A DNA stretch of 64,000 bases from contig CM046869.1 of NCBI GenBank assembly GCA_025617745.1, positions 17,190,994-17,254,993 on the forward strand. The letters run 5' to 3'. The notes under the pieces were generated by a model. That model was not told the origin of the DNA. It worked only from the letters and a program-made list of their open reading frames with translations, and ran no database searches. This DNA is from Heliocidaris erythrogramma. Its lineage: Eukaryota > Echinodermata > Echinoidea > Camarodonta > Echinometridae. The first letter of the stretch is position 1, and each line of letters opens with the position of its first letter. The position numbers and the translations under genes are program-made. Below are positions 10,611 through 62,200 of this stretch, one piece after another.

Positions 10611-35412
<24,802 letters not shown>

Positions 35413-37023
35413 CTTCACACCTCTGGGTTGACAATGGCTCACTGATCAGTTAAATGTATTCCGTCCTTTGTAAGGCACCACCAGTGTTTTCCTTCATCCA
35501 CTTAAATACAGCAGAACATTAATTTCCATCTTCAATTTTCAGCTGAATAATATTTGACCTACAAAGAAAATTGAAAATTCACTGAAAGGAAAAGTAGACA
35601 ACTTCACCATGGAAAACGGTATACATGTTAAAAATGAATATAACATTTATGTAGGGGGGCACAACCAGCTTCTGCCCCAACCTCTTTTGAAACCAAATGG
35701 GCATACCTTAAGTAAACTGTTAATGTGTAATTTTCAAAACTTTGATTAAGATCCTATTGAAGAATCTGGCATGAAATTAAATATATATTCTATCATCCTA
35801 AAATGTAGAAGAAAGTTTTTTTCTCAAAAGTTTACTGATTATAAACTGGTGTTTTTACATTTTCAACTTAGTCTTAGAAATTGACACAGCCCCTGATACA
35901 TGTAGAGTCTACATGTAGTGATGATTCCTTGAGTGCTCTAAGGTGCATCATGTGCATGTATGACTGAATATTTTCTATAGAGAAAATGGAAATTTATGAT
36001 ATAATCAGCTAAATTTTGCGAAGATACTTCCTTCTACGTACATGTTAGGATAATAGAATATCTGATTTCATGCCAGATTCTTCAATAGGAAAAGACTTTA
36101 TCATCTTGACCAAGTGAAATTTTTAGGCTGTTTTTTGAGTAGCGATCTTGCTCCTTTCCAGCACACATACGCTAGAGATCACATGGAGTGGGAGGCAATT
36201 TTTTGCAATACGAAGGTACAGAGTGCTAGGTTATCTACAAAAAGTTAAAAAAAACTCGCCTATGAGTGAGTGACCTCAGATATATCATCGTTGCTCATAT
36301 GTTTTTACACAAAACCTGTATGAAACATATTTATTCCTTTATCTTAAAATTAGAAAATTAAAATTTATGAGATTTTCTGTATTGAGCAAATGGGAGAGGA
36401 GCTTACAAGACACGTCACAGAGCTCCTAATTTGTGTTTGATTGATTAGGTCTAACGACTCTAACTTACATGTAAGTCTAAGTTAACAAATAAGTGAACAG
36501 TTAAATATGTTTGATGGGGGGGGGGGGGGGGGTTGTGTGTCCGTACACTGTCTTAACATAACATATCCTGTCAATTTTGTTGTCATATTTTACGAAAAAA
36601 TATGCATCAAGTAAAAATAAATAATAATAAATTTTGGCCTTCTCGTGAATTAAGCCACCGGTCATCGAGTGTGTACACACACACACTGCCGTGTAAAGTC
36701 GATGGGGGATGTGAACCCTCATAGGCAATTACACACAATAAACTGCATGTACAAAGTGAATGCGGGGTGGCTTATTTAACGAGAATGCCTAAATTTCACT
36801 TATAAAGCGCCTTTTCATAAGATACAAAGCGCATGTAACAGATAAACAAAGAGAACAGTATCATCCGGGGGGGGGGGGGAGTCAACCTTTTTTTGGATGT
36901 GGGTGTGCCGCTGCCAATCTCAAAACAGGGGGCTAAGGAGCTAAATGGTTAATTGAGGAAGCTCATTTTTTAGGGTCTAAGGAGCTACATGTAAATGGTT
37001 AATCGAGGAAGCTCATTTTTGAG
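35413..37023. other. WDR47 upstream region
   Basis: It should contain the WDR47 5' UTR and promoter, but no TATA box, CpG cluster or UTR exon could be assigned with confidence. An inverted repeat (CCTATTGAAGAATCTGGCAT at 35752 against its inverse near 36070) and a TTAA-MITE relic (GAGCAAATGGGAGAGGAGCT near 36387) occupy most of it. A 16-17 bp G-run lies near 36517. Confidence 0.5.
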
Positions 37024-37031
37024 GGTCTAAC

Positions 37032-37722
37032 CACTCCCGGGTACATTTCTGTAAAATAACTGGTATTTTCTGTCGCATGTACTAAAGGTATGGGGGGGAA
37101 AATAAGATAAATATTTTAAATACTTGCTTTCAAATTCAGCCCTTAAAAATCTCACTCCTACCTCAAATGGCCGTTAGGAAGAACTTTTGATATTTACAGC
37201 AAAATCCAAAGTCAAAATCTTGTCCAAAACCGGAGAAATCCCCGCCGATTTGTTTCGCGATCGCGTGTTGTTTACAAACTGCCGATGTCTTAGACTAAAA
37301 TCGGCCAATATAATTTTTGTCCACGAAGAAACTCGGGATCGCAAGGGCACATCGATCTTTACGATCGCGCACACAGAAAATCAGAACTTTTCCGTGTACG
37401 CCATAGGGACCGAATTTTTGAGGACAAAACTCTTTTGGGGAGATGTCAGCGCCCGCGGCGACCAGGAAATGTACACAATGACTCCGATAGCTCGTTTCGC
37501 GAGAATCAACAGTAAATTGCGGATTTCATTTTTGTAAATATCTTTTCCAACATTGGTGAGTTGAATTTATTGTATTTCTTCGATATTTTGGGGTCGGTTT
37601 TTGAAAATTAAATGCCGATTTTGAGTGAATATTGGTGACTTTTGTGCAGTGGTGTTTTAAAAAGATGAGGTGTATGACTGCCTACATTATACACACGAAG
37701 TATAGGAATGTACCTATGAGTG
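37032..37722 (+). mobile_element. Self-inserting hAT-like element, copy U1 (691 bp)
   Basis: Flanked by exact 8-bp duplications GGTCTAAC at 37024-37031 and 37723-37730. The left end CACTCCCGGGTACATTTCTG and the inverted right end CACTCATAGGTACATTCCTA match at 15 of 20 positions. No transposase is encoded. Frames on both strands happen to be open for about 110 codons. It is non-autonomous. Confidence 0.9.
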
Positions 37723-38044: not shown

Positions 38045-39150
38045 CGCCTGGCTTCGTGATGTAGAAGGCGTATAGCCAATTTTTTTTTTTTTTACATTCA
38101 CGAAGCCAATCCTGGCTACCCTAGACCGAAATTTTCTGTCTCTCGTTCGTTAGCCTCTTATTTGGATAGGGTCGGCCATTCACTTAATTAGAGACAGAAA
38201 CGCTCCATTCACTCGCCTGACATGCCTGACTCTGAGCAAACTCACTGTCAACCGCTTGACAGTAGGCATCACTCCGGGTACATTTCTGTAAAATAGTTGG
38301 TATTTTCTGTCGCATGTACTAAAGGTATGGGGGAAAAAATAAGATAAATATTTTAAATACTTGCTTTCAAATTCAGCCCTTAAAAATCTCACTCCTACCT
38401 CAAATGGCCGTTAGGAAGAACTTTTGATATTTTCAGCAAAATCCAAAGTCAAAATCTTGTCCAAAACCTGAGAAATCCCCGCCGATTTGTTTCGCGATCG
38501 CGTGTTGTTTACAAACTGCCGATGTCTTAGACTAAAATCGGCCAATACAATTTTTGTCCACGAAGAAACTCGGGATCGCAAGCGCACATCGATCTTTACG
38601 ATCGCGCACACAGAAAATCGGAACTTTTCCGTGTATGCCATAGGGACCGAATTTTTGAGGACAAAACTCTTTTGGGGAGATGTCAGCGCCCGCGGCGACC
38701 AGGAAATGTACACAATGACTCCGATAGCTCGTTTCGCGTGAATCAACAGTAAATTACGGATTTGATTTTTGAAAATATCTTTTCCAACATTGGTGAGTTG
38801 AATTTATTGTATTTCTTGGATATTTTGGGGTCGGTTTTTGAAAATTAAATGCCGATTTTGAGTGAATATTGGTGACTTTTGTGCAGTGGTGTTTTAAAAA
38901 GATGAGGTGTATGACTGCCTACATTATACACACGAAGTATAGGAATGTAGCTATGAGTGGTAGGCATGTCGTTTTTGTAAATCGTATTATTCACATTTTA
39001 ACAATATAAATTTAAATTAAATAGATTAAGCCTAGGCTCTATACTTAAACGAAGTGAAGAGCTACGAACGAGAGACAGAATTTTCGGTCTATGGCTACCC
39101 GAGCACAGGCTCAGCCTCAGTCTCAGACTCGGTCAATGCATAGCCACAAT
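38045..39150. mobile_element. Inverted-arm repeat hosting copy U2
   Basis: AGACCGAAATTTTCTGTCTC followed by TCGTTCG near 38124 is inverted as GAGACAGAATTTTCGGTCT near 39070. Copy U2 (38270-38959) lies inside and is younger. The arms also share the CGGTCT end of the 0.8-kb repeat at 32-33 kb. Confidence 0.5.
38270..38959 (+). mobile_element. Self-inserting hAT-like element, copy U2 (690 bp)
   Basis: Flanked by exact GTAGGCAT duplications at 38262-38269 and 38960-38967. The left end is CACTCCGGGTACATT (one C fewer than U1) and the right end GTAGCTATGAGTG. It is nearly identical to U1 throughout. Confidence 0.92.
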
Positions 39151-42351: not shown

Positions 42352-43451
42352 GAGCGAAGCGACCGAGCGGGGGAGGGTGTGAGAGGGGGGTATCCCTCTC
42401 CCACACCAGGGACTTTTTAAAAAATCTGTCTATAAAACTTGCATTTTTATAGAGCATCCCAAAATGTTTTTTTAATGAAAAGAAGGAATGCACGGATCTA
42501 CGCCAATGGACGGAACCCCTCAATTAAGAATAACAATATGAGCGAACAGATTTTCTTCAATATTTTCGCATTGAAATTATGGCATATCTTATTTCCTAAC
42601 TTCTAATCATTAAAGAATGTGATGGTATATCAAGATCAAAGATAATGTACACAAATATAAAAAAAAGATCAAAGATAATGAGTTTGGATAATTATTAGAT
42701 TTAAGTTAATGTATCATAATTCTTATTTATTTTATCCAAAAATATTGGGGGGGGGGGGGAGGATGATAATACAGGCCATCCCCCACCTCAATTTTTTTGG
42801 GGATATATACGCCCATCCCCCCCCCCCCCCCCCCCGGGATCGACACCCATGTAGGGCATAAAATTTGACGTGGCTCTGACTTTGTAGGCCTACCATAGTT
42901 TCTTGCCTTCTTTCTTTTTCTTCAGTATTGTTGGCGTTGGCGTTCCATAGGCTGTTTTTCTCATTTTGTTTGTATGAAAAAGAAAGGAGAAAATAATGAC
43001 GAATGAATCTGTTTCTGGTGAGTTATTTCAAATGATATTGTCATATCGACGTGTGTATTGCTATTATGTGCAGCATAGGCCGGTCGATTTTCAAGTAAAA
43101 TGCAACAGAGTAGCAGTCTTACTCAATTTGTACTGTTTTATTTCCATACTTCACTACATGCATGTCCCACACATGTGATTTTATGTAAGGTTTCTGTCAC
43201 TCGTACACATACGAGCATGACGAGCTTATCGTAAGATAACCTCGTACTCCATAGACGTTAATACCACATCAGCAAGCAATGGTCATATTGACCATTAGAA
43301 TCATATACATGTGTGTATACTGGGTATTGGGGATACAGATGTAATTTTGTTTGAAATTGATGTTTTTGTGGGCAAACTGATACTTAAGTATCATTCTTTA
43401 GATTTTAAGTTATCAGTTCGTTAAGATACAAAATGTAGAAAGTTATAAAAA

Positions 43452-43557
43452 CTTACATTTACAGCCCTCTTTTTGGAACTTGTTACCAACACCTCCATAC
43501 GGATGACGACTGCTCTCAATAATGTTGCGCACTAGTGAGGCCGCTCTACATGGTTAC
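43452..43557 (-). pseudogene. Second exon-like fragment in the left arm of A1
   Basis: Read on the minus strand, AASLVRNIIESSRHPYGGVG then NKFQKEGCKC runs to a donor-like AAAT|GTAAGT. The same segment occurs at 47103-47205 (plus), 48745-48832 (minus) and 49078-49172 (plus). Small coding changes separate the copies. No ATG in frame was found nearby. Function unknown. Confidence 0.35.
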
Positions 43558-43639
43558 GCACCGTAGATACGTACGCAGAATGTTACGCACACAAGCTATT
43601 CTACGAAGACCTGGAAGGGCCAAACTGACGACGTAAAAA

Positions 43640-43735
43640 AATAAAAAATATTTCGTACGTACGTAGTAATTATTACGTACGTACGTAATATTTTTAATTT
43701 TTTTACGTCGTCAGTTTGGCCCTTTCAGGTTTTCG
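43640..43735. repeat. TACGTACG-centred palindrome of A1
   Basis: GGGCCAAACTGACGACGTAA on the left is inverted as TTACGTCGTCAGTTTGGCCC on the right. The centre is built from TACGTACGTA words around GTAATTATTAC. Confidence 0.9.
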
Positions 43736-43908
43736 TAGGAGATCGACGAACCATCGCGCCGGTACTACTACGAGTGCTGAGGGCTCCCTTCATCATAATC
43801 GTGAAAAATACAAACTGGATGCTGACGGGACAGTCTCGATAGCAGTTATCGACAAAAAGGACCCAAAATTTCAGGAAACCCTCTTCAAAGGTCACAAAAC
43901 AACCTGGT
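43735..43908 (+). pseudogene. Exon-like coding fragment inside element A1
   Basis: An open segment encodes SAEGSLHHNREKYKLDADGT and VSIAVIDKKDPKFQETLFKG, followed by HKTTW at a donor-like CTG|GTAAGT. A second copy is at 46784-46957 on the minus strand with near-identical coding (ACTGGTAAGT there becomes an AACTGGTAAGT context). The protein family was not recognised. It could be a captured host exon or a remnant of a transposon gene. Confidence 0.45.
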
Positions 43909-44204
43909 AAGTTTTAATCATCTATTATTCAATATAATTATTTGGATGTAAGTAAACTGCAATATATGATATTCAATTAAATATAGCCAAAAATGCACAG
44001 TGATGCAGTTTAGGTATGGGATGTGTGTTGGCTGCGTTACTACACAGTCGGCAATGGCGTGTACCTATGAGTGGTTATACGGCAGATTTGAATGTATACT
44101 TTACAATATCACCTCCCTTGCAATTCCAAGGGTTAATTCCCTATTTTTGCTGTATCTATATTGCATGATATTTATGTATTAACACTCATCATGCTCATAC
44201 CACT

Positions 44205-44895
44205 CACTCCCGGGTACATTTCTGTAAAATAGTTGGTATTTTCTGTCGCATGTACTAAAGGTATGGGGGGGAAAATAAGATAAATATTTTAAATACTTGC
44301 TTTCAAATTGAGCCCTTAAAAATCTCACTCCTACCTCAAATGGCCGTTAGGAAGAACTTTTGATATTTACAGCAAAATCCAAAGTCAAAATCTTGTCCAA
44401 AACCGGAGAAATCCCCGCCGATTTGTTTCGCGATCGCGTGTTGTTTACAAACTGCCGATGTCTTAGACTAAAATCGGCCAATATAATTTTTGTCCACGAA
44501 GAAACTCGGGATCGCAAGGGCACATCGATCTTTACGATCGCGCACACAGAAAATCGGAACTTTTCCGTGTACGCCATAGGGACCGAATTTTTGAGGACAA
44601 AACTCTTTTGGGGAGATGTCAGCGCCCGCGGCGACCAGGAAATGTACACAATGACTCCGATAGCTCGTTTCGCGAGAATCAACAGTAAATTACGGATTTG
44701 ATTTTTGGAAATATCTTTTCCAACATCGGTGAGTTGAATTTATTGTATTTCTTGGATATTTAGTGGTCGGTTTTTGTAAATTAAATGCCAATTTTGAGTG
44801 AATGTTTGTGACTTTTGTGCAGTGGTGTTTTAAAAAGTTGAGGTGTATGACTGCCTACATTATACACACGAAGTATAGGAATGTAGCTATGAGTG
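44205..44895 (+). mobile_element. Self-inserting hAT-like element, copy U3 (691 bp)
   Basis: Exact ATACCACT duplications at 44197-44204 and 44896-44903. Left end CACTCCCGGG, right end GCTATGAGTG. It is inserted across the left boundary of copy M1. Confidence 0.92.
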
Positions 44896-44909
44896 ATACC
44901 ACTCATAGC

Positions 44910-45625
44910 CACACCACGAATAGTGGTCATATTGACCACTACGAATACAAAATGCAAAAATAGTTCATATTTTCTGTCGCGTGTAGTAAAGGTATGGGGG
45001 GAAAATAAGATAAATATTTTAAATACTTGATTTCAAATTCAGCCCTTAAAAATCTCACTCCTACCTCAAATGGCCGTTAGAAAGAACTTTTGATATTTTC
45101 AGCAAAATCCAAAGTCAAAATCTTGTCCAAAACCAGAGAAATCCCCGCCGATTTGTTTCGCGATCGCGTGTTGTTTACATACTGCCGATGTCTTAGACTA
45201 AAATCGGCCAATAAATTTTTGTCCACGAAGAAACTCGGGATCGCAAGCGCACATCGATCTTAACGATCGCGCACACAGAAAATCGGGACTTTCCGTGTAT
45301 GCCACATAGGGACCGAATTTTTAAGGACAAAACTCTTTTGGGGAGATGTCAGCGCCCGCGGCGACCAGTAAATGTACACAATGACTCCGATAGCTCGTTT
45401 CGCGAGAATCAACAGTAAATTACGGATTTGATTTTTTGAAATATCTTTTCCAACATCGGTGAGTTGAATTTATTGTATTTCTTGGATATTTAGTGGTCGG
45501 TTTTTGTAAATTAAATGCCGATTTTGAGTGAATGTTTGTGACTTTTGTGCAGTGGTGTTTTAAAAAGTTGAGGTGTATGACTGCCTACATTATACACACG
45601 AAGTATAGGAATGTACCTATGAGTG
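44910..45625 (+). mobile_element. Self-inserting hAT-like element, copy U4 (716 bp)
   Basis: Exact CTCATAGC duplications at 44902-44909 and 45626-45633. The left end CACACCACGAATAGTGGTCA defines a second subfamily, with the perfect palindrome AGTGGTCATATTGACCACT. The right end is CCTATGAGTG. Its target octamer is part of the family's own terminus CACTCATAGC. Confidence 0.92.
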
Positions 45626-45633
45626 CTCATAGC

Positions 45634-46351
45634 CACACCACGAATAGTGGTCATATTGACCACTACGAATACAATATGCAAAAATAGTTGCTATTTTCTG
45701 TCGCGTGTAGTAAAGGTATGGGGGGAAAAATAAGATAAATATTTTAAATACTTGCTTTCAAATTCAGGCCTTAAAAATCTCACTCCTACCTCAAATGGCC
45801 GTGAGGAAAAACTTTTGATATTTTCAGCAAAATCCAAAGTCAAAATCTTGTCCAAAACCGGAGAAATCCCCGCCGATTTGTTTCGCGATCGCGCGTTGTT
45901 TACATACTGCCGATGTCTTTGGACTAAAATCGGCCAATAAAATTTTTGTCCACGAAAAAACTCGGGATCGCAAGCGCACATCGATCTTTACGATCGCGCA
46001 CACAGAAAATCGGGACTTTTCCGTGTATGCCACAGGGACCGAATTTTTAAGGACAAAAATCTTTTGGGGAGATGTCAGCGCCCGCGGCGACCAGGAAATG
46101 TACACATTGACTCCGATAGCTCGTTTCGCGAGAATCAACAGTAAATTACGGATTTGATTTTCGGAAATATCTTTTCCAACATCGGTGAGTTGAATTCATT
46201 GTATTTCTTGGATATTTTGATGTCGGTTTTTGTAATCTAAATGCCGATTTTGAGTGAATGTTTGTGACTTTTGTGCAGTGGTGTTTTAAAAAGTTGAGGT
46301 GTATGACTGCCTAAATTATACACACGAAGTATAGGAATGTAGCTATGAGTG
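45634..46351 (+). mobile_element. Self-inserting hAT-like element, copy U5 (718 bp)
   Basis: Exact CTCATAGC duplications at 45626-45633 and 46352-46359, the second insertion at the same octamer. It is about as intact as U4 and shares its left end. The right end GCTATGAGTG, followed by the target copy, creates the palindrome ATGTAGCTATGAG/TGCTCATAGCTACAT. Confidence 0.92.
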
Positions 46352-46617
46352 CTCATAGCTACATTCCTATACTTTGTGTGTATAATGTAGGCAGTCATAC
46401 ACCTCATCTTTTTAAAACACCACTGCACAAAAGTCACCAATATTCACTCAAAATCGGCATTTAATTTTCAAAAACCGACCCCAAAATATCCAAGAAATAC
46501 AATAAATTCAACTCACCAATGTTGGAAAAGATATTTACAAAAATGAAATCCGTAATTTACTGTTGATTCTCGCGAAACGAGCTATCGGAGTCATTGTGTA
46601 CATTTCCTGGTCGCCGC

Positions 46618-47392
46618 CACTCATAGGTACACGCCATTGCCGACTGTGTAGTAACGCAGGCAATAGTGAGTACGGTACTAATATGTATCACTGTGCATTT
46701 TTGGCTATATTTAAGTGAAACCCATATCTTGGTGTTTACTTAAATATAACTAATTATGTTGAATAATAGATGATTAAAACTTACCAGTTTGTTTTGTGAC
46801 CTTTGAAGAGGGTTTCCTGAAATTTTGGGTCCTTTTTGTCGATAACTGCTATCGAGACTGTCCCGTCAGCATCCAGTTTGTATTTTTCACGATTATGATG
46901 AAGGGAGCCCTCAGCGCTCGTAGTAGTACCGGCGCGATGGGTTCGTCGATCTCCTACGAAGACCTGAAAGGGCCAAACTGACGACGTAAAAAATTAAAAA
47001 TATTACGTACGTACGTAATAATTACTACGTACGTACGTAATATTTTTTATTTTTTTACGTCGTCAGTTTGGCCCTTCCAGGTCTTCGTAGGAGATCGACG
47101 AACCCATGTAGAGCGGCCTCACTAGTGCGCAACATTATTGAGAGCAGTCGCGATCCGTATGGAGATGTGGGTAACAAGTACCGAAAAGAGGGCTGTAAAT
47201 GTAAGTTTTTATAACTTTCTACATTTTGTATCTTAACGAACTGATAACTTAAAATCTAAAGAATGATACTTAAGTATCAGTTTGCCCACAAAAACATCAA
47301 TTTCAAACAAAATTACATCTGTATCCCCAATACCCAGTATACACACATGTATATGATTCTAATGGTCAATATGACCATTGCTTGCTGATGTG
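46618..47392 (-). mobile_element. Palindrome-centred element with captured exon, copy A2 (775 bp)
   Basis: Exact GTCGCCGC duplications at 46610-46617 and 47393-47400. It starts CACTCATAGGTACACGCC and ends CTTGCTGATGTG. It is inserted in the middle of copy M1. It carries the same exon-like fragment as A1 in inverse orientation and a central palindrome at 46937-47107. Confidence 0.92.
46784..46957 (-). pseudogene. Exon-like coding fragment inside element A2
   Basis: Minus-strand counterpart of 43735-43908, encoding the same YKLDADGTVSIAVIDKKDPK segment and ending at a GTAAGT donor-like site. The near identity of both copies shows that the fragment moved with the element rather than being acquired twice. 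Confidence 0.45.
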
Positions 47393-47831
47393 GTCGCCGC
47401 GGGCGCTGACATCTCCCCAAAAGAGTTTTGTCCTCAAAAATTCGGTCCCTATGGCGTACACGGAAAAGTTCCGATTTTCTGTGTGCGCGATCGTAAAGAT
47501 CGATGTGCCCTTGCGATCCCGAGTTTCTTCGTGGACAAAAATTATATTGGCCGATTTTAGTCTAAGACATCGGCAGTTTGTAAACAACACGCGATCGCGA
47601 AACAAATCGGCGGGGATTTCTCCGGTTTTGGACAAGATTTTGACTTTGGATTTTGCTGTAAATATCAAAAGTTCTTCCTAACGGCCATTTGAGGTAGGAG
47701 TGAGATTTTTAAGGGCTGAATTTGAAAGCAAGTATTTAAAATATTTATCTTATTTTTCCCCCCATACCTTTAGTACATGCGACAGAAAATACCAACTATT
47801 TTACAGCAATGTACCCGGGAGTGACTCATAC

Positions 47832-48530
47832 CACTCATAGCTACATTCCTATACTTCGTGTGTATAATGTATGAATGTAGGCAGTCATACACCTCATCTT
47901 TTTAAAACACCACTGCACAAAAGTCACCAATATTCACTCAAAATCGGCATTTAATTTTCAAAAACCGACCCCAAAATATCCAAGAAATACAATAAATTCA
48001 ACTCACCAATGTTGGAAAAGATATTTTCAAAAATCAAATCCGTAATTTACTGTTGATTCTCGCGAAACGAGCTATCGGAGTCATTGTGTACATTTCCTGG
48101 TCGCCGCGGGCGCTGACATCTCCCCAAAAGAGTTTTGTCCTCAAAAATTCGGTCCCTATGGCGTACACGGAAAAGTTCCGATTTTCTGTGTGCGCGATCG
48201 TAAAGATCGATGTGCGCTTGCGATCCCGAGTTTCTTCGTGGACAAAAATTGTATTGGCCGATTTTAGTCTAAGACATCGGCAGTTTGTAAACAACACGCG
48301 ATCGCGAAACAAATCGGCGGGGATTTCTCCGGTTTTGGACAAGATTTTGACTTTGGATTTTGCTGTAAATATCAAAAGTTCTTCCTAACGGCCATTTGAG
48401 GTAGGAGTGAGATTTTTAAGGGCTGAATTTGAAAGCAAGTATTTAAAATATTTATCTTATTTTTCCCCCCATACCTTTAGTACATGCGACAGAAAATACC
48501 AACTATTTTACAGAAATGTACCCGTGAGTG
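47832..48530 (-). mobile_element. Self-inserting hAT-like element, copy M2 (699 bp)
   Basis: Exact ACTCATAC duplications at 47824-47831 and 48531-48538. It starts CACTCATAGC and ends CCCGTGAGTG. It contains a small internal duplication (ATGTATGAATGTAG near 47866) that adds about 8 bp. It abuts M1, sharing one target copy. Confidence 0.92.
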
Positions 48531-48547
48531 ACTCATACCACTCATAG

Positions 48548-49356
48548 CACATCAGCAAGCAATGGTCATATTGACCATTAGAATCATATACATGTGTGTA
48601 TACTGGGTATTGGGGATACAGATGTAATTTTGTTTGAAATTGATGTTTTTGTGGGCAAACTGATACTTAAGTATCATTCTTTAGATTTTAAGTTATCAGT
48701 TCGTTAAGATACAAAATGTAGAAAGTTATAAAAACTTACATTTACAGCACTCTTTTTGGTACTTGTTACCCACATCTCCATACGGATCACGACTGCTCTC
48801 AATAATGTTGCGCACTAGTGAGGCCGCTCTACATGGTTACGCACCGTAGATACGTACGCAGAATGTTACGCACACAAGCTATTCTACGAAGACCTGGAAG
48901 GGCCAAACTGACGACGTAAAAAAATAAAAAATATTACGTACGTACGTAGTAATTATTACGTACGTACGTAATATTTTTTATTTTTTTACGTCGTCAGTTT
49001 GGCCCTTCCAGGTCTTCGTAGAATAGCTTGTGTGCGTAACATTCTGCGTACGTATCTACGGTGCGTAACCATGTAGAGCGGCCTCACTAGTGCGCAACAT
49101 ATTGAGAGCAGTCGTCATCCGTATGGAGGTGTGGGTAACAAGTACCAAAAAGAGGGCTGTAAATGTAAGTTTTTATAACTTTCTACATTTTGTATCTTAA
49201 CGAACTGATAACTTAAAATCTAAAGAATGATACTTAAGTATCAGTTTGCCCACAAAAACCTCCATTTCAAACAAAATTACATCTGTATCCCCAATACCCA
49301 GTATACACACATGTATATGATCCTAATGGTCAATATGACCATTGCTTGCTGATGTG
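48548..49356. mobile_element. Near-perfect 809-bp palindromic element P1
   Basis: Both ends are CACATCAGCAAGCAATGGTC, and the arms (48548 to about 48955 and about 48966 to 49356) mirror each other almost base for base. The centre is TACGTACGTAGTAATTATTA and CGTACGTA words. The flanks ACTCATAG and ACTCATAC agree at 7 of 8. It is the fully symmetrical form of elements A1/A2, and both arms carry the ESSRHPYGG exon-like fragment. Confidence 0.9.
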
Positions 49357-49364
49357 ACTCATAC

Positions 49365-49389
49365 CACATCAGCAAGCAATGGTCATATT
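49365..49389. mobile_element. Terminal fragment of a P/A-type element
   Basis: Only the first 25 bp of a P-type end (CACATCAGCAAGCAATGGTC and five more bases) remain, joined directly to a CACTCGTAG end of the other family. Confidence 0.8.
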
Positions 49390-49600
49390 CACTCGTAGCT
49401 ACATTCCTATACTTCGTGTGTATAATGTAGGCAGTCATACACCTCAACTTTTTAAAACACCACTGCACAAAAGTCACAAACATTCACTCAAAATCGGCAT
49501 TTAATTTACAAAAACCGACCACTAAATATCCAAGAAATACAATGAATTCAACTCACCGATGTTGGAAAAGATATTTCCAAAAATCAAATCCGTAATTTAC
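49390..49600 (-). mobile_element. Truncated hAT-like copy M4
   Basis: It begins CACTCGTAGCTACATTCC and follows the family until CGTAATTTAC, then is cut by the start of copy M5. Confidence 0.85.
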
Positions 49601-49601
49601 T

Positions 49602-50029
49602 CACTCATAGCTACATTCCTATACTTCGTGTGTATAATTTAGGCAGTCATACACCTCAACTTTTTAAAACACCACTGCACAAAAGTCACAAACTTTTACT
49701 CATAATCGGCATTTAATTTACAAAAACCGACCACAAAATATCCAAGAAATACAATAAATTCAACTCACCGATGTTGGAAAAGATATTTCCAAAAATCAAA
49801 TCCGTAATTTACTGTTGATTCTCGCGAAACGAGCTATCGGAGTCAATGTGTACATTTCCTGGTCGCCGCGGGCGCTGACATCTCCCCAAAAGAGTTTTGT
49901 CCTTAAAAATTCGGTCCCTGTGGCATACACGGAAAAGTCCCGATTTTCTGTGTGCGCGATCGTAAAGATCGATGTGCGCTTGCGATCCCGAGTTTTTTCG
50001 TGGACAAAAATTTTATTGGCCGATTTTAG
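49602..50029 (-). mobile_element. Truncated hAT-like copy M5 joined to a P-type end
   Basis: It begins CACTCATAGC and follows the family until CCGATTTTAG at 50029. Sequence 50030-50097 is unrelated DNA that ends in a P/A-type terminus (GGTCAATATGACCATTGCTT, GCTGATGTG). This is a chimaera of the two families. Confidence 0.8.
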
Positions 50030-50119
50030 GTGCGCAGACATAAGGCTCCCCATCATATATTTCCTAATGGTCAATATGACCATTGCTTGCTGATGTGGCC
50101 TAGAATAGATTCTACACAC

Positions 50120-50835
50120 CACTCATAGCTACATTCCTATACTTCGTGTGTATAATGTAGGCAGTCATACACCTCAACTTTTTAAAACACCACTGCACAA
50201 AAGTCACAAACATTCACTCAAAATCGGCATTTAATTTACAAAAACCAACCACAAAATATCCAAGAAATACAATAAATTCAACTCACCGATGTTGGAAAAG
50301 ATATTTCCAAAAATGAAATCCGTAATTTACTGTTGATTCTCGCGAAACGAGCTATCGGAGTCATTGTGTACATTTCCTGGTCGCCGCGGGCGCTGACATC
50401 TCCCCAAAAGAGTTTTGTCCTTAAAAATTCGGTCCCTGTGGCATACACGGAAAAGTCCCGATTTTCTGTGTGCGCGATCGTAAAGATCGATGTGCGCTTG
50501 CGATCCCGAGTTTCTTCGTGGACAAAAATTTTATTGGCCGATTTTAGTCTAAGACATCGGCAGTATGTAAACAACACGCGATCGCGAAACAAATCGGCGG
50601 GGATTTCTCCGGTTTTGGACAAGATTTTGACTTTGGATTTTGCTGAAAATATCAAAAGTTCTTCCTAACGGCCATTTGAGGTAGGAGTGAGATTTTTAAG
50701 GGCTGAATTTGAAAGCAAGTATTTAAAATATTTATCTTATTTTCCCCCCATACCTTTACTACACGCGACAGAAAATACCAACTATTTTTGCATGTTGTAT
50801 TCGTAGTGGTCAATATGACCACTATTCGTGGTGTG
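50120..50835 (-). mobile_element. hAT-like copy M6, left border of the LINE-containing unit (716 bp)
   Basis: It begins CACTCATAGC and ends ACCACTATTCGTGGTGTG, the second subfamily. Its 5' flank is CTACACAC. There is no matching octamer directly after its 3' end (GCTAATAG), but CTACAGCC follows copy U6 on the far side of the LINE fragment. Confidence 0.88.
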
Positions 50836-52132
50836 GCTAATAGCAAGGTTCTCTGGCAAGGAAAAGCTTCCAATCAAATCACCTTGGAGAAAGGCGGGCG
50901 ACAAGGTGCCATACTCTCGCCATCACTTTACACTCTCTTTATTGATAACCTGATAAAAGATCTCAAACTGAAAGGTCTAGGATGCAGCTTCCAGGGAAGA
51001 TATTCTGGTATAATTGTTCTTGCTGATGATGTAGCCCTTCTAACCCCCTCAGCTGATGAGTTACAGGAGATGCTTACAGTCACCCATGAGTATACCAAGA
51101 GATGGAAATACTCTGTCAACCCCTCTAAAAGTGCAGTCATTGCCTTCAATGAGAAGTATAGCCCTCCTGTCAAAAGGCAGCAGTCTTCTTGGATGCTTGC
51201 TGAGGGTCAACCAATCAATTAAAGTGACTCAATATCCCCATCTTGGAATCACCAAATCTACAGGCCGTTATGATCCTACCATAGACATCACTGCAAGGGG
51301 ACTCAAAACCTTCTACTCCCTCCATGGTGTTGGGGTTTACACTTCTGGCCTGTCTCCGCATCTCTGTGCAAAGCTGTGGACCGTGTTCTGTGTCCCCAGG
51401 ATGCTATATGGCACTCCTATCCTCTCCTTAACATCCCACCAGGCAGCTCGCATTAACACCTCTCAAAACCAGCTGTTCAAGAAGATTTTAGGAATCCCCC
51501 AAAGTGCAGCTAACGAGGCAGTGTTCCTTCTTACAGGTATCATTCCACTCCTCTCACAAGTAGAGCTAGATTCCCTCCTCGTCATAGGCCAGCTCACTTC
51601 ACTGCCTGAAGACCGTTTTGAGAAGAGGACGCTAATGCATGCTTCCATCCTCAATGTACCTCTTATGAAGTCCTGGAACATCCTTCTCTCCAAATACAAT
51701 CTACCTGACCTTACCTGCCTGATAGAGCTCCCAATCCCATATCAAAAGTGGAAATCTATCTCGAGGAAGTCTATCCACTCAAAAGTCCTGCAGGATACAC
51801 TAAATGCCATAACACTTAAACCATCCCTCTCCTTCTGGAAAGATCTTGACCACTTGCCTTCGTCTGCATTGTTCTTCCCGGAAGGATTAGCCCCTCATCT
51901 ACGTAAGGCACAAATAATCAGAGCTCAGCTCCTTACTCAGACTTGCCCTACCCAGAAGCGTCTCTCTAAAATCGGCAAATCCACCACTGCTTCCTGCCCG
52001 CTCTGTAAAGATGCTGATGAAGATGCCCTTCACTTTATCTCCTCTTGCTGCCATTTACAACCCCAGCGAACCTCCTTTATATCGAATGCCAACAAAAAGC
52101 TGCCTGAAATTGGAATTACTGATGGTCTTGAC
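50836..52132 (+). pseudogene. Non-LTR retrotransposon reverse-transcriptase fragment
   Basis: The frame from 50836 encodes EKGGRQGAILSPSLYTLFID and LADDVALLTPSADELQEMLT, the RT motifs around the catalytic ADD. The reading then shifts near 51205-51222 to the next frame, which continues VTQYPHLGITKSTGRYDPTI. It ends with a C-x2-C-x8-H-x4-C cluster (CPLCKDADEDALHFISSC), the usual LINE C-terminal finger. The RT N-terminus, endonuclease and 3' UTR are missing. Both ends stop exactly at hAT-like element termini. A single frameshift and otherwise open frames suggest modest age. Confidence 0.88.
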
Positions 52133-52800
52133 CACACCAGGAATAGTGGTCATATTGACCACTACGAATACAACATGCAAAAATAGTTGGTATTTTCTGT
52201 CGCGTGTAGTAAAGGTATGGGGGGAAAAATAAGATAAATATTTTAAATACTTGCTTTCAAATTCAGGCCTTAAAAATCTCAATCCTACCTCAAATGGCCG
52301 TTAGGAAGAACTTTTGATATTTTCAGCAAAATCCCAGTCAAAATCTTGTCCAAAACCGGAGAAATCCCCGCCGATTTGTTTCGCGATCGCGTGTTGTTTA
52401 CATACTGCCGATGTCTTAGACTAAAATCGGCCAATAAAATTTTTGTCCAGTAAGAAACTCGGGATCGAGCGCACATCGATCTTTACGATCGCGCACACAG
52501 GACAAAAATCTTTGGGGGAGATGTCAGCGCCCGCGGCGACCAGGAAGTGTACACAATGACTCCGATAGCTCGTTTCGCGAGAATCAACAGTAAATTACGG
52601 ATTTGATTTTTGGAAATATCTTTTCCAACATCGGTGAGTTGAATTTATTGTATTTCTTGGATATTTTGGGGTCGGTTTTTGTAAATTAAATGCCGATTTT
52701 GAGTGAATTTTGGTGACTTTTGTGCAGTGGTGTTTTAAAAAGTTGAGGTGTATGACTGCCTACATTCTACACACGAAGTATAGGAATGTAGCTATGAGTG
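52133..52800 (+). mobile_element. hAT-like copy U6, right border of the LINE-containing unit (668 bp)
   Basis: It begins CACACCAGGAATAGTGGTCA and ends GCTATGAGTG. It has lost about 45 bp internally near 52500. It is oriented opposite to M6, so the RT fragment lies between two inward-facing second-subfamily ends. Confidence 0.88.
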
Positions 52801-55618: not shown

Positions 55619-56334
55619 CACTCATAGCAGCATTACTATACTTCGTGTGTAGAATCTAGGCAGTCATACACCTCAACTTTTCAAACACGACTGCACAAAA
55701 GTCACCCGCATTCACTCAAAATCGGCATTTAATTTACAAAAACCAACCCCAACATATCCATGAAATCCAATAAATTCAACTCACTGATGATGGAAAAGAT
55801 AATTCCAAAAATGAAATCTGTAATTTGCTCTCAATTCCAGCGAAACGGGGTATCGGGAGTCATTGTGTACATTTCCTGATCGCCGCGAGCACTGACATCT
55901 CCCCCGAAAGAATTCGGTCGTTAAAAATTTGGGCCCTATCGCGTACACGGAATAGTTCTGATTTCCTGTATGCGCGATCGTAGAGAATAAAGTGCGCACA
56001 CGATACTGAGTTTCTTTGTGGACAAAATTTTATTAGCCGAATTTACTCTAAGACATCGGCGGAATGAAAACAACATGCTATCGCGAAAAAAATCGGCGGG
56101 GATTTCTTTGGTTTTGGACATGATTTTGACTTTGGATTTTGCTGGAAATATCAGAAGTTCTTCCTAACGGTCATTTAAGGTAGGAATGAGATTTTTAAGA
56201 GCTGAATTTGAAAGGAAGTATGTAAAATATTTATCTTATTTTCCCCCCATACCTTTAGTACATGCGATAGAAAATAACTAGTATTTTTGCATTCACCCCG
56301 CGTAATGGCCAATATGACCACTATTCTTGGTGTG
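55619..56334 (-). mobile_element. Older hAT-like copy M7 (716 bp)
   Basis: Exact GTCTTGTC duplications at 55611-55618 and 56335-56342. It begins CACTCATAGCAG and ends TTCTTGGTGTG. The interior carries many more substitutions than U1-U6, and its reading frames are broken, so it is the oldest copy in the window. Confidence 0.92.
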
Positions 56335-59205: not shown

Positions 59206-62200
59206 TGAGGAAGTGAGAGAGAGAGAGAGAGAGAGTAAGGGGAGGGAGGGAGAGAGAGAAAGAGAGTGGAGGTAGAGAGAGAGAGAGAGAGAGAGAGATA
59301 TGTGAGATTGATTGAAGGGGAAAATGTGATTGAATTAGGCCCAAACAGGAATGAACTCAAGCGTTTGTATTCTTAAGCAATTCTTTAATCCAAACTATTT
59401 GTATTTATTTAGTGCTTTTTGTATTTGAGCAGGATCATGCTTCAGTAGGGTCGGTTGGGCTTGTGAAACTACTCCAGGACTTGCCTTTCGCAACATCATT
59501 GCCAGGCAACGGGGTAAGAAAGATTCAGAGGCTCAAATTGGCAACGACATACCCAACGTGGAGACTGTACGGTGGCTCTTGAAGACTCAGTTTGATCGAG
59601 ACGTCGTGACCCATTACGATGCTCAGGAACAAATTCTAGACCACGTGTTCCAGCGATTAGGCGTCGACTCAGAGGGGGCTGTAAAACACCCTATCGTCAT
59701 GACAGAAACGCCATGTAATCCTAATCTGTGCAGACAAAGTGAGTTTCGAATGCCAGAAAATTATTTCGGCTCAACTAATACAGATTTTTCTTCTTTATAT
59801 GCACAACACAAAATAAAACTTGATTAGGAGCAACTTCGATGAAGAAAAATGATCAGGTACAACAAATAGACAATACTTGGCAAGTTGGCAAACATTTGTT
59901 ATCAACTGGTAAAATAAATGATTGAACTCAAGTTAAAATCTTTGTTCATAATCATCTTGGAGTTTGGGAAAGTCTAGGAAGAAAACTCTTGAAGGAATTT
60001 CATAATTTCCTAAAGAATTAAAGGCTGCTTTCTAAATTTTTGCTGATATGTAAGCATGTTTGGCACTTCTCTTTATACTTTATGGCATTATTTTATATTG
60101 ATTGCAAATTTCTGGAAGGAGACTTGATTTTTCTGACAATTTTATGTCTCTATTTTACAGCAATGTCTGAACTCTTGTTTGAGTGCTATCATATACCCAG
60201 TCTTGCCTATGGCATTGACAGTCTGTTCAGCCTCTACTATAATTGTCCAGAATCTGGTAAGTATGCTGATACCATATGCTTTATTATTACATGTACCTAT
60301 ATGAGGCATTTTAGCGGCGCATTAAAAACGCATATTTTTGTCCGTTTGATTTGCGCGTGCAATATGAGAGCATATTGCACGGAACGCTTAATTCCCCATA
60401 GGCTACAGTACTAAACTTGCCGTGCAATATTATGCCGTATTTTGTCTGGTCTGTTTGCGTGTGCGCAAATAATGCAACGCATACACACATACGCACATGA
60501 CGTCATAAAGAGGTTGAGTTAAACTTGTGTGATCACAATGAAGTATGATGAGGGGCTCTATTAACTGAATGTGGTTGGTTAAAATGATTTTTATTAAGTT
60601 CTAAATCATTTTCCTGTAGGGTATAGATAATAATTATATTGGATGGCTTTATTTCATGGAATACCAGAAATATTCCACTCGTTAGGGCCAATACTGCACT
60701 CATCTTCGATTCGTGCAATGACTCCATTTGACTCCATTTTACCCCATTGGCTCGCTATTATTGCATAAGCAGTTTTCAGCAGTTTGTTTTCCATAATCAT
60801 ATTTTTGCCACATAGGATTTACTATTGGGGTTTGGGACAAATCCTTGACTATTAATTCTCTGAATGCAAGCATTACATTTTTTCATTGAACAGCAATGAA
60901 TGGCTGCAGCTTAGTCTTGTCGTCTGGATTCCAGACCAGTTACATTCTACCAGTCATCAACGGTCAGCTGGATTCTGGCCACTGCCGTAGGCTGAATATT
61001 GGCGGCACCCACTTGACTGGTTACTTACTTAGATTGCTACAACTCAAGTATCCAGCACATCAGTCAAGCATCAACCTGAGCAGAGCAGAGGTAGGGTCAG
61101 TTTAATAGAGATGGAAAAGAAGAATTAGGACAGGAGAAGGAGTGAAGAAGGGAGAAGGATGGAGGGAAAATGGAAAATGAGGGAGGGAGGCAGGGAGGCA
61201 GGGAGAGAGAGGCAGGGAGGCAGGGAGGCAGGGAGGGACGGAGAGAGAGGCAGTGAGGCAGGCAGGCAGGCAGGGAGGGAGGCAGGCAGGGAGAAAGAGG
61301 GAGGCAGACAGGGAGGCAGGCAGGGAGGGAGGGAGAGAGAGGGAGGCAGACAGGGAGGCAGGGGGGGAGGGAGAGAAAGGGAGGGAGGCAGGGAGAGAGA
61401 GGGAGGCAGGGAGGCAGGGAGACAGGGAGAGAGATGGAAGGAGGCAGGGAGAGAGGGAGGGAGGAAGGAAGGGAAGGAAGGGAGGCAGGGAGGGAAGGAG
61501 GAAGAGAGAGAAAAGGAGAAATAATTAGAGACAGAAAGATAATGTGAGAATGTAACAATGCAGAATAAAACGGAGAGAAAGATAGTGAAAACAAAAAGGA
61601 CGGAGTTGGAGAGAAAGAGAGAGAAGGATATGTAGAGACAGATGAAGAAAAGGATAGATAGAGAGACAGAGAGAGACAAAATGGATATATGGGTGTGGGT
61701 GTGGCGTTAGCAGAGTGGGAAATTTATAAGAGAATAAATGTTAGAAGGGAGAGTAGGGAGAGTAAAAGGTACTAGACCAATAGGGAATCCTAAAACCAAC
61801 TGGGAAGAGAACATTAAGACATTCTAGTGCATTCTTGCAATGTTTTTCCACTCCAGGGGAGCGTTTCATCAAGCATTTTGTCGGTGATTTTTGCTCTCAG
61901 CCAATCAGACGCAAGGATTTCAGTAGCTTATAACAGTTGTCGGTAAAAATCACTGACAAAACACTTGATGAAACGCTCCCCTGGAGTGGAAAAACATTGC
62001 AAGAATGCACTAGAATGGCACAGATGAGAGATGTGTGGAAAAAAAATGTTGCAATCAATCTCCAAAGACACCATGATATATAGAAAATAGGAAATTGAAA
62101 ATAGAATAACTGTAATAAATTTATGATGAAAATATTAAAAGTGGTACAATAATTAAGATGTTTTTTGGTTATCAGGATAAAGGAATGGGACAACACGAGA

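Follow-up and report, generated by a model that had tools for sequence, protein, structure and literature searches.

Preferential self-insertion in a family of short nonautonomous transposons from the sea urchin Heliocidaris erythrogramma

Do short transposable elements that lie inside one another reach that arrangement by chance, or does the family insert into itself? The question is raised by a 64,000-bp stretch of Heliocidaris erythrogramma DNA (the window, part of contig C17), in which positions 43265 to 52800 hold a colony of related elements. These elements are of three kinds, here called U, A, and M, and further copies were sought across the genome (1.06 Gb, 26 contigs). The colony proved to be genuine, and the genome holds many others like it. 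The insertions are likewise real and are aimed at the family's own copies, where they fall on fixed subterminal octamers, on the termini, and on octamers that had already been used.

Self-insertion was counted among the first 100 listed U left ends of contig C1, the one contig on which insertion sites were sampled, taken in chromosomal order with 150 bp of upstream flank each. In 32 of these 100 consecutive insertions, family sequence extends right to the junction and the copy lies directly inside the family (33 under a looser rule). Young copies make up ∼0.33% of the genome, which gives an expectation of 0.33 such insertions per 100; even were the family 5% of the genome, 32 would have a probability of 1e-17. 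A further seven insertions lie exactly 8 bp from the end of another copy, and two others are 7 and 9 bp from one; nine have nontouching family sequence less than 150 bp away and 50 have none. A preliminary description of the window had proposed that the family inserts into itself, to be checked by looking genome-wide for octamer duplications and for an excess of insertions in the family's own ends; the 32 direct self-insertions bear out the proposal, and both checks were positive.

Target-site duplications document these events as insertions. The far side was fetched for 20 of the 32 nested copies and was readable in 19, of which 15 carry the same octamer on both sides. In 14 nested copies the joined host aligns across the junction, including one (L061) with mismatching octamers. 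Seven of the octamer-adjacent copies were also fetched; six were readable, and the shared octamer recurs on the far side in four. In a two-sided sample of 60 U and M copies, reduced to 58 by two for which an end was not found, perfect octamers were present at 47 and octamers with at most one mismatch at 52. All 12 plain (nonnested) C1 copies that were read have perfect octamers, one of them (L131) with family sequence 91 bp off.

Distances between copies were compared with expectation. Among 226 left ends of C1 (0 to 40 Mb), the observed and expected numbers of pairs were 60 and 1.3 below 1 kb, 45 and 1.3 at 1 to 2 kb, 53 and 3.8 at 2 to 5 kb, 45 and 6.4 at 5 to 10 kb, and 14 and 12.7 at 10 to 20 kb, with no excess farther away; 136 of the 226 ends have another end within 2 kb. 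Because the 100 places listed first for each pattern are all exact matches, older ends fall outside this test. The clustering consists of nests (up to ∼10 kb) and not of favored regions, and regional clustering was rejected given the lack of excess at 10 to 20 kb or beyond. We give scarcely any credence to an account without targeting, by which the nests would reflect misassembly, duplication of ready-made nests, or selective removal of insertions elsewhere. Octamers match on both sides, hosts differ, both orientations occur at one site, and clustering is absent from 10 to 20 kb onward; moreover, the best-scoring copies are too alike for selection to have raised 0.33% to 32%. It is nevertheless the case that near-identical copies invite misassembly and that some junctions lie close enough together to be possible copies of each other (1.4 kb apart on C6, 191 bp on C5, and 57 kb on C8).

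Within the element, a small number of octamers is hit repeatedly. On U, to which 23 of the 32 nested insertions map, 18 are in the first 200 bp, two in the middle 430, and three in the last 61 (positions 2, 32 [three insertions], 64, 123, 130-131 [five], 137 [two], 142 [two], 149 [two], 199, 370, 552, 638, 645, and 689). The scarcity in the middle has a P of 1.4e-7 if insertion is uniform and 1e-10 if it is weighted by target motif. The remaining nine comprise eight insertions in M and one at A 24. Genome-wide, exact junctions place 10 young U copies in the octamer at U 32-39, five per orientation, where ∼0.004 is expected (∼2500-fold), and 11 U copies, with a single orientation counted, in the octamer at U 130-137, where ∼0.001 is expected (∼8500-fold). 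These expectations combine random placement with the motif model (36 sites) and consider young hosts only, and a few junctions may have arisen by duplication of others; it is the orders of magnitude that matter, not the exact figures.

The target motif, symmetrized from 36 plain sites, is G-GTYnnRAC-C. Judged by this motif, family sequence is only 1.2 to 1.3 times as attractive as other sequence in the window, and motif preference alone was rejected on that ground as the cause of self-insertion; nested U copies in fact have somewhat poorer motif scores than others (median percentile, 0.87 versus 0.92). A preference of the transposase for DNA structure, such as bends, AT-rich stretches, or palindromes of the element wherever they occur, might account for the pattern. 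Two hot octamers, CCTCAAAT (U 130-137) and GTTAGGAA (U 142-149), both used in both orientations, flank a GGCC core, and insertions at GTCATATT fall in a TGGTCATATTGACCA palindrome (L043, L085, and the copy U8 in the window). Most hot octamers, however, lie outside any clear palindrome, and the choice of precisely the octamer next to a copy is independent of inner sequence, which makes this explanation decidedly unlikely. Targeting through chromatin, in which an open or small-RNA-marked state of resident copies would draw insertions with no transposase tether, would also confine nests to kilobases and yield insertions in both U/A and M. By itself, it leaves unexplained why individual octamers received 10 and 11 insertions and why the exact flanking octamer is used, and we regard it as unlikely.

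Reuse of octamers also bears on where the elements join. Excised copies could in principle integrate into each other before landing, with the composite then entering the chromosome; on C1, three U-in-U composites (L095, L148, and L160) have outer hosts whose flanks differ, as would be expected of composites landing as units. This scenario is weakened because chromosomal octamers are reused: reuse of the octamer beside a resident copy (by A1 and A2 in the colony, described below, and in four C1 cases) requires a host that is already chromosomal. The 5:5 use of U 32-39 in two orientations likewise is not that of one spreading composite, and on the same count the spread of whole U-in-U units was rejected as the chief origin of the sites that recur. 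We therefore consider autointegration before landing very unlikely.

The family has the structural features of miniature inverted-repeat transposable elements (MITEs): a length of 691 to 810 bp, no transposase, inverted ends, high copy number, homogeneity, and a target duplication. U and A have almost all of their sequence in common to the right of approximately U position 22 (A position 48), and their left ends differ (CACTCCCGGG in U and CACACCACG in A). M is an asymmetric element with its own left end, CACATCAGC, and a right terminus, CTATGAGTG, shared with U/A. The two ends of U match in 15 of their 20 outermost positions, and those of M in a few positions only. Genome-wide, we counted 1226 U left ends (exact matches), 1501 A left ends, and 2019 M left ends (at most one mismatch each), the M count taking foldback copies such as M3 twice; reversed control patterns had zero matches. 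U, A, and M spread in a very recent burst. Of 30 best-scoring U copies fetched, 25 are letter-identical over 691 bp; because the 30 were drawn from the top 40 by score among 1958 candidates, they represent the young core of the family and not its average. No Pfam match was obtained in the three frames of the family that were tried.

The middle of M, at 43602 to 43742 in M1 and at the corresponding place in other M copies, forms a near-perfect hairpin of ∼136 nucleotides (−64.2 kcal/mol as DNA versus a mean of −15 for shuffled sequences). M1 also has, at ∼43724 to 43908, an exon-like open stretch between TTTCAG/G and TGG/GTAAGT, a splice-donor-like site. This stretch could be an exon that was captured, or else what is left of the autonomous element. 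Its frame matched no Pfam family, and one weak match to the PDB chain SAKe6DEtal (E, 0.0014 over 22 residues) was disbelieved.

The colony itself can be read copy by copy. Over 44.2 to 52.8 kb of the window, a BLAST search with the solitary copy U1 retrieves ten pieces, which the end-by-end map assigns to nine U/A copies (U3, A1, A2, U6, U7, U8, A3, A4, and A5), not ten, because two of the pieces belong to one interrupted copy, U6. The preliminary description, which counted at least ten full or partial copies, was thus correct as to pieces but not as to copies; the three copies of a 775- to 809-bp sister that it reported are indeed present as M1, M2, and M3 (809, 775, and 809 bp). The U/A element is 690 to 720 bp long, and its copies and those of M are nested or end to end. 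Two short M-left pieces are also present, one at 49365 to 49389 and another with its end at 50097. In the core (43.2 to 49.4 kb), seven copies retain both ends, five with perfect octamer duplications and one with a single mismatch.

M1 (43265 to 44073, plus strand) is a complete 809-bp copy and an independent unit with both M ends, 99.0% identical to the M majority sequence. It had previously been placed first in the order of events, with U3, U4, U5, and A2 inserted into it. That order is not borne out, as M1 stops at 44073 with the family right terminus. Because 26 of 30 M copies fetched from the genome are 810 bp long and run from CACATCAGC to CTATGAGTG, M1 is complete and host to nothing, which rules it out as the host of U3 to U5 and A2; its left end had apparently been paired with that of M2, 4 kb off.

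The actual host of U3, A1, A2, and M2 is U6, a minus-strand U copy now in three parts: a stub at 44896 to 44909, a right part at 46352 to 46617 (U 689-424; 98.9% identity), and a left part at 47393 to 47823 (U 431-1; 99.5%). U6 predates its guests and itself landed at [G/A]CTCATAC, its outer octamers GCTCATAC and ACTCATAC agreeing at 7 of 8 positions. U3 (44205 to 44895, plus strand), a complete 691-bp copy with 98.1% identity to U, entered the right terminus of U6 at the perfect octamer ATACCACT. The 14-bp minus-strand stub, ATACCACTCATAGC, comprises the octamer of U3 and the U6 right terminus, severed by U3 and A1. The complete copies A1 (44910 to 45625, 716 bp) and A2 (45634 to 46351, 718 bp), both on the plus strand, entered the same terminal octamer of U6, CTCATAGC; this sequence, perfect at both copies, is now present three times. 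M2 (46618 to 47392, minus strand; 775 bp, 91.1% to M) entered U6 at the perfect octamer GTCGCCGC, the second copy of which opens the U6 left part. An M copy on C6 (L032) sits at the same U octamer; at 810 bp and 99%, versus 775 bp and 91% for M2, it differs in length and identity and is therefore a separate insertion. Each octamer is also a record of the order of events.

Beyond U6, U7 (47832 to 48530, minus strand) is a complete 699-bp U copy one octamer away, with perfect ACTCATAC on both sides, the octamer that it shares with U6. M3 (48548 to 49356, no strand assigned) is an 809-bp foldback in which M 1-474 occurs twice, head to head (98.5 to 99.2% identity in both orientations), with flanks ACTCATAG and ACTCATAC that differ by one mismatch. 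The piece at 49365 to 49389 (plus strand), recognized from its sequence as a 25-bp M left-end stub, is broken at GTCATATT. In the palindrome of this stub, at GTCATATT, begins U8 (49390 to 49601, minus strand), a partial 212-bp U/A copy with 96.2% identity to A that is cut by A3 (49602 to 50029, minus strand; partial, 428 bp, 97.7% to A). A4 (50120 to 50835, minus strand) is a full-length A copy (97.1% to A) whose flanks, CTACACAC and GCTAATAG, have six mismatches, and A5 (52133 to 52800, plus strand) is an A copy with deletions (668 bp, 89.6% to A) whose flanks have five; neither has a duplication. The octamer duplications reported earlier accordingly hold as perfect at U3, A1, A2, M2, and U7 and with one mismatch at M3, but not at A4 or A5 or at M1, where GTTAATAC and GTTATACG differ at four positions, alternatively readable as a one-base deletion.

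Between A4 and A5, whose left ends face it, lies a piece of a non-long-terminal-repeat-type retrotransposon (50836 to 52132; RVT_1 above the cutoff and zf-RVT just below). Outside the colony, the window holds the solitary plus-strand U copies U1 (37032 to 37722; perfect octamer GGTCTAAC) and U2 (38270 to 38959; perfect octamer GTAGGCAT), as well as an older family copy without a readable left end (55619 to 56287; 86% to U). WDR47-like coding stretches are found on the minus strand at 13783 to 16596 and 34300 to 35445 (WD40 at 13.8 to 14.2 kb and WDR47_COR at 34.3 to 35.4 kb), and an actin-related coding stretch is found on the plus strand at 59429 to 59824.

Membership of the family in the hAT superfamily is not established, and the P-type superfamily fits at least as well; as a matter of judgment, we give the P type about one half and hAT about a quarter. 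hAT ends generally have the form CAGNG. The ends of this family begin CACTC, CACAC, or CACAT and lack the CAG-type terminal repeats of hAT elements such as Mar and BuT2, while the 8-bp target duplication is a hAT trait but also a P trait. The P-type combination of an 8-bp duplication (7 bp in some members) with a GTnnnnAC-type motif is present; this motif is not decisive for P because that of hobo is similar. The motif is common to hobo, a hAT element, and the P element (GTNCGNAC against GTCCGGAC; PMC3276498). The hAT label in the preliminary description had been drawn from 8-bp duplications and CA-starting ends; of these, only the duplication speaks for it, given the CAC ends, a motif that is also that of P, and 12 hAT loci without family ends in the stretches examined.

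Those 12 loci, from 76 PF05699 matches genome-wide, showed no family ends in the 900 bp downstream. None were found either at five P-type loci of 6.0 to 6.5 kb (from 29 PF21787 matches), three of them widened by 1 kb per side. KDZ has five matches in the genome. The flanks of 60 loci contain 195 frames of at least 110 amino acids, or 64 after removal of those derived from the family; no partner was identified among the 30 longest, inspected by eye over their first 90 residues. A tblastn search with one P-type transposase against the fetched loci and the window gave matches only at the three loci chosen for their P-type match. The genome does hold a separate young P-type transposon, with an 869-codon open frame (786 amino acids when counted from ATG) at eight equally scored loci; its places include L161 (C17:9188300-9194800) and L165 (C8:46529500-46535500), and two copies are 99.97% identical over 5.95 kb. 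The left boundary of this transposon, CACAGAACTCC, which occurs at three loci with different flanks, shares only CAC with the family, and its right end is beyond the stretch read. Apart from chance 7-mers, no family ends occur in the stretches of it that were read.

MITEs nested in MITEs were reportedly described in maize and rice by Jiang and Wessler in 2001. P-derived MITEs of Anopheles gambiae are likewise short and nonautonomous with 8-bp duplications, and AgaP2-P12MITE has two ends of different origin, comparable to the U left end being unlike that of A; P masters were found there but not here, and the portion available reports no preferential self-insertion (PMC1562414). The hAT MITEs Mar and those derived from BuT2 are alike in size range, 8-bp duplications, and bursts, but their ends start with CAG (CAGRGGTAGGC and CAGTGCTGCC) as opposed to CACTC, CACAT, or CACAC, and the duplication consensus of Mar is nnnTAnnn as opposed to GTYnnRAC (PMC3517528 and PMC3942097). 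Galileo, of the P superfamily, resembles the family in its GT...AC palindromic target motif and variable structure, and 28 of 191 copies have other elements at their termini; unlike the family here, it has 7-bp duplications as a rule and long terminal repeats, and no self-targeting is stated in the sections available (PMC4168063). The "autoinsertions" of plant long terminal repeat retrotransposons also show same-family nesting with preferred element regions, but the preference is for regions rather than single octamers, and the excerpt states no reuse of target duplications (PMC6911290). A Fusarium Helitron inserts into itself to form composites, although it is a rolling-circle element and the passages available give one nested example plus inferred composites (PMC5148889). 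We found no report of the U/A/M family or of a MITE that targets single octamers of itself in the titles and abstracts searched, a coverage that excludes most subscription journals.

Overall, the data are best explained, and probably so, by a recent burst of MITE-like U, A, and M elements mobilized in trans, with self-directed integration and tethering by a transposase bound to resident copies. U, A, and M would be three nonautonomous cut-and-paste subfamilies moved by a transposase encoded elsewhere, which would make 8-bp duplications at a palindromic G-GTYnnRAC-C site. As octamers and genome-wide counts show, integration is strongly steered to existing family copies: to a small set of octamers within the leftmost 150 bp of U/A, to the termini, and to the octamer flanking a resident copy. 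Serial self-insertion builds colonies of up to ∼10 kb, such as that at 43.3 to 52.8 kb. We infer that a transposase recognizing subterminal sequence occupies resident copies and keeps the incoming synaptic complex near; the nearest acceptable octamers would thus be reused repeatedly, in either orientation.

Several findings weigh against this explanation. The putative transposase with family ends was not found at the loci searched. The eight M insertions are spread along the whole of M, and the site that best fits the motif in the middle of U has received four insertions versus 0.15 expected (∼26-fold), so that targeting extends beyond the ends. Matching octamers are lacking at 4 of the 19 readable nested copies and at 2 of the 6 octamer-adjacent ones. 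Under a stricter rule, by which the host had to align to either side of the junction, 10 of 58 copies (6 of 30 U and 4 of 28 M) count as self-insertions, and in one of these (L019) the octamers do not match; this rule misses insertions at the outermost bases, e.g., L018, L037, L048, and L054.

Nests of transposable elements are usually put down to insertions that accumulate passively wherever they are tolerated. In this family, roughly one in three of the sampled young insertions falls at defined octamers within ∼0.3% of the genome, and the elements are too alike to have been sorted by selection, so that targeting can be separated from survival. We tentatively suggest, at somewhat less than an even chance, that resident copies are the main landing platform of the transposase, which, bound close to their ends, would send new copies into fixed subterminal octamers and into the octamer beside a resident copy thousands-fold above chance, and that such built-in self-targeting may spare host genes and limit the burst. 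The family offers a system for measuring self-targeting, the reuse of target sites, and their cost to a burst of transposition.

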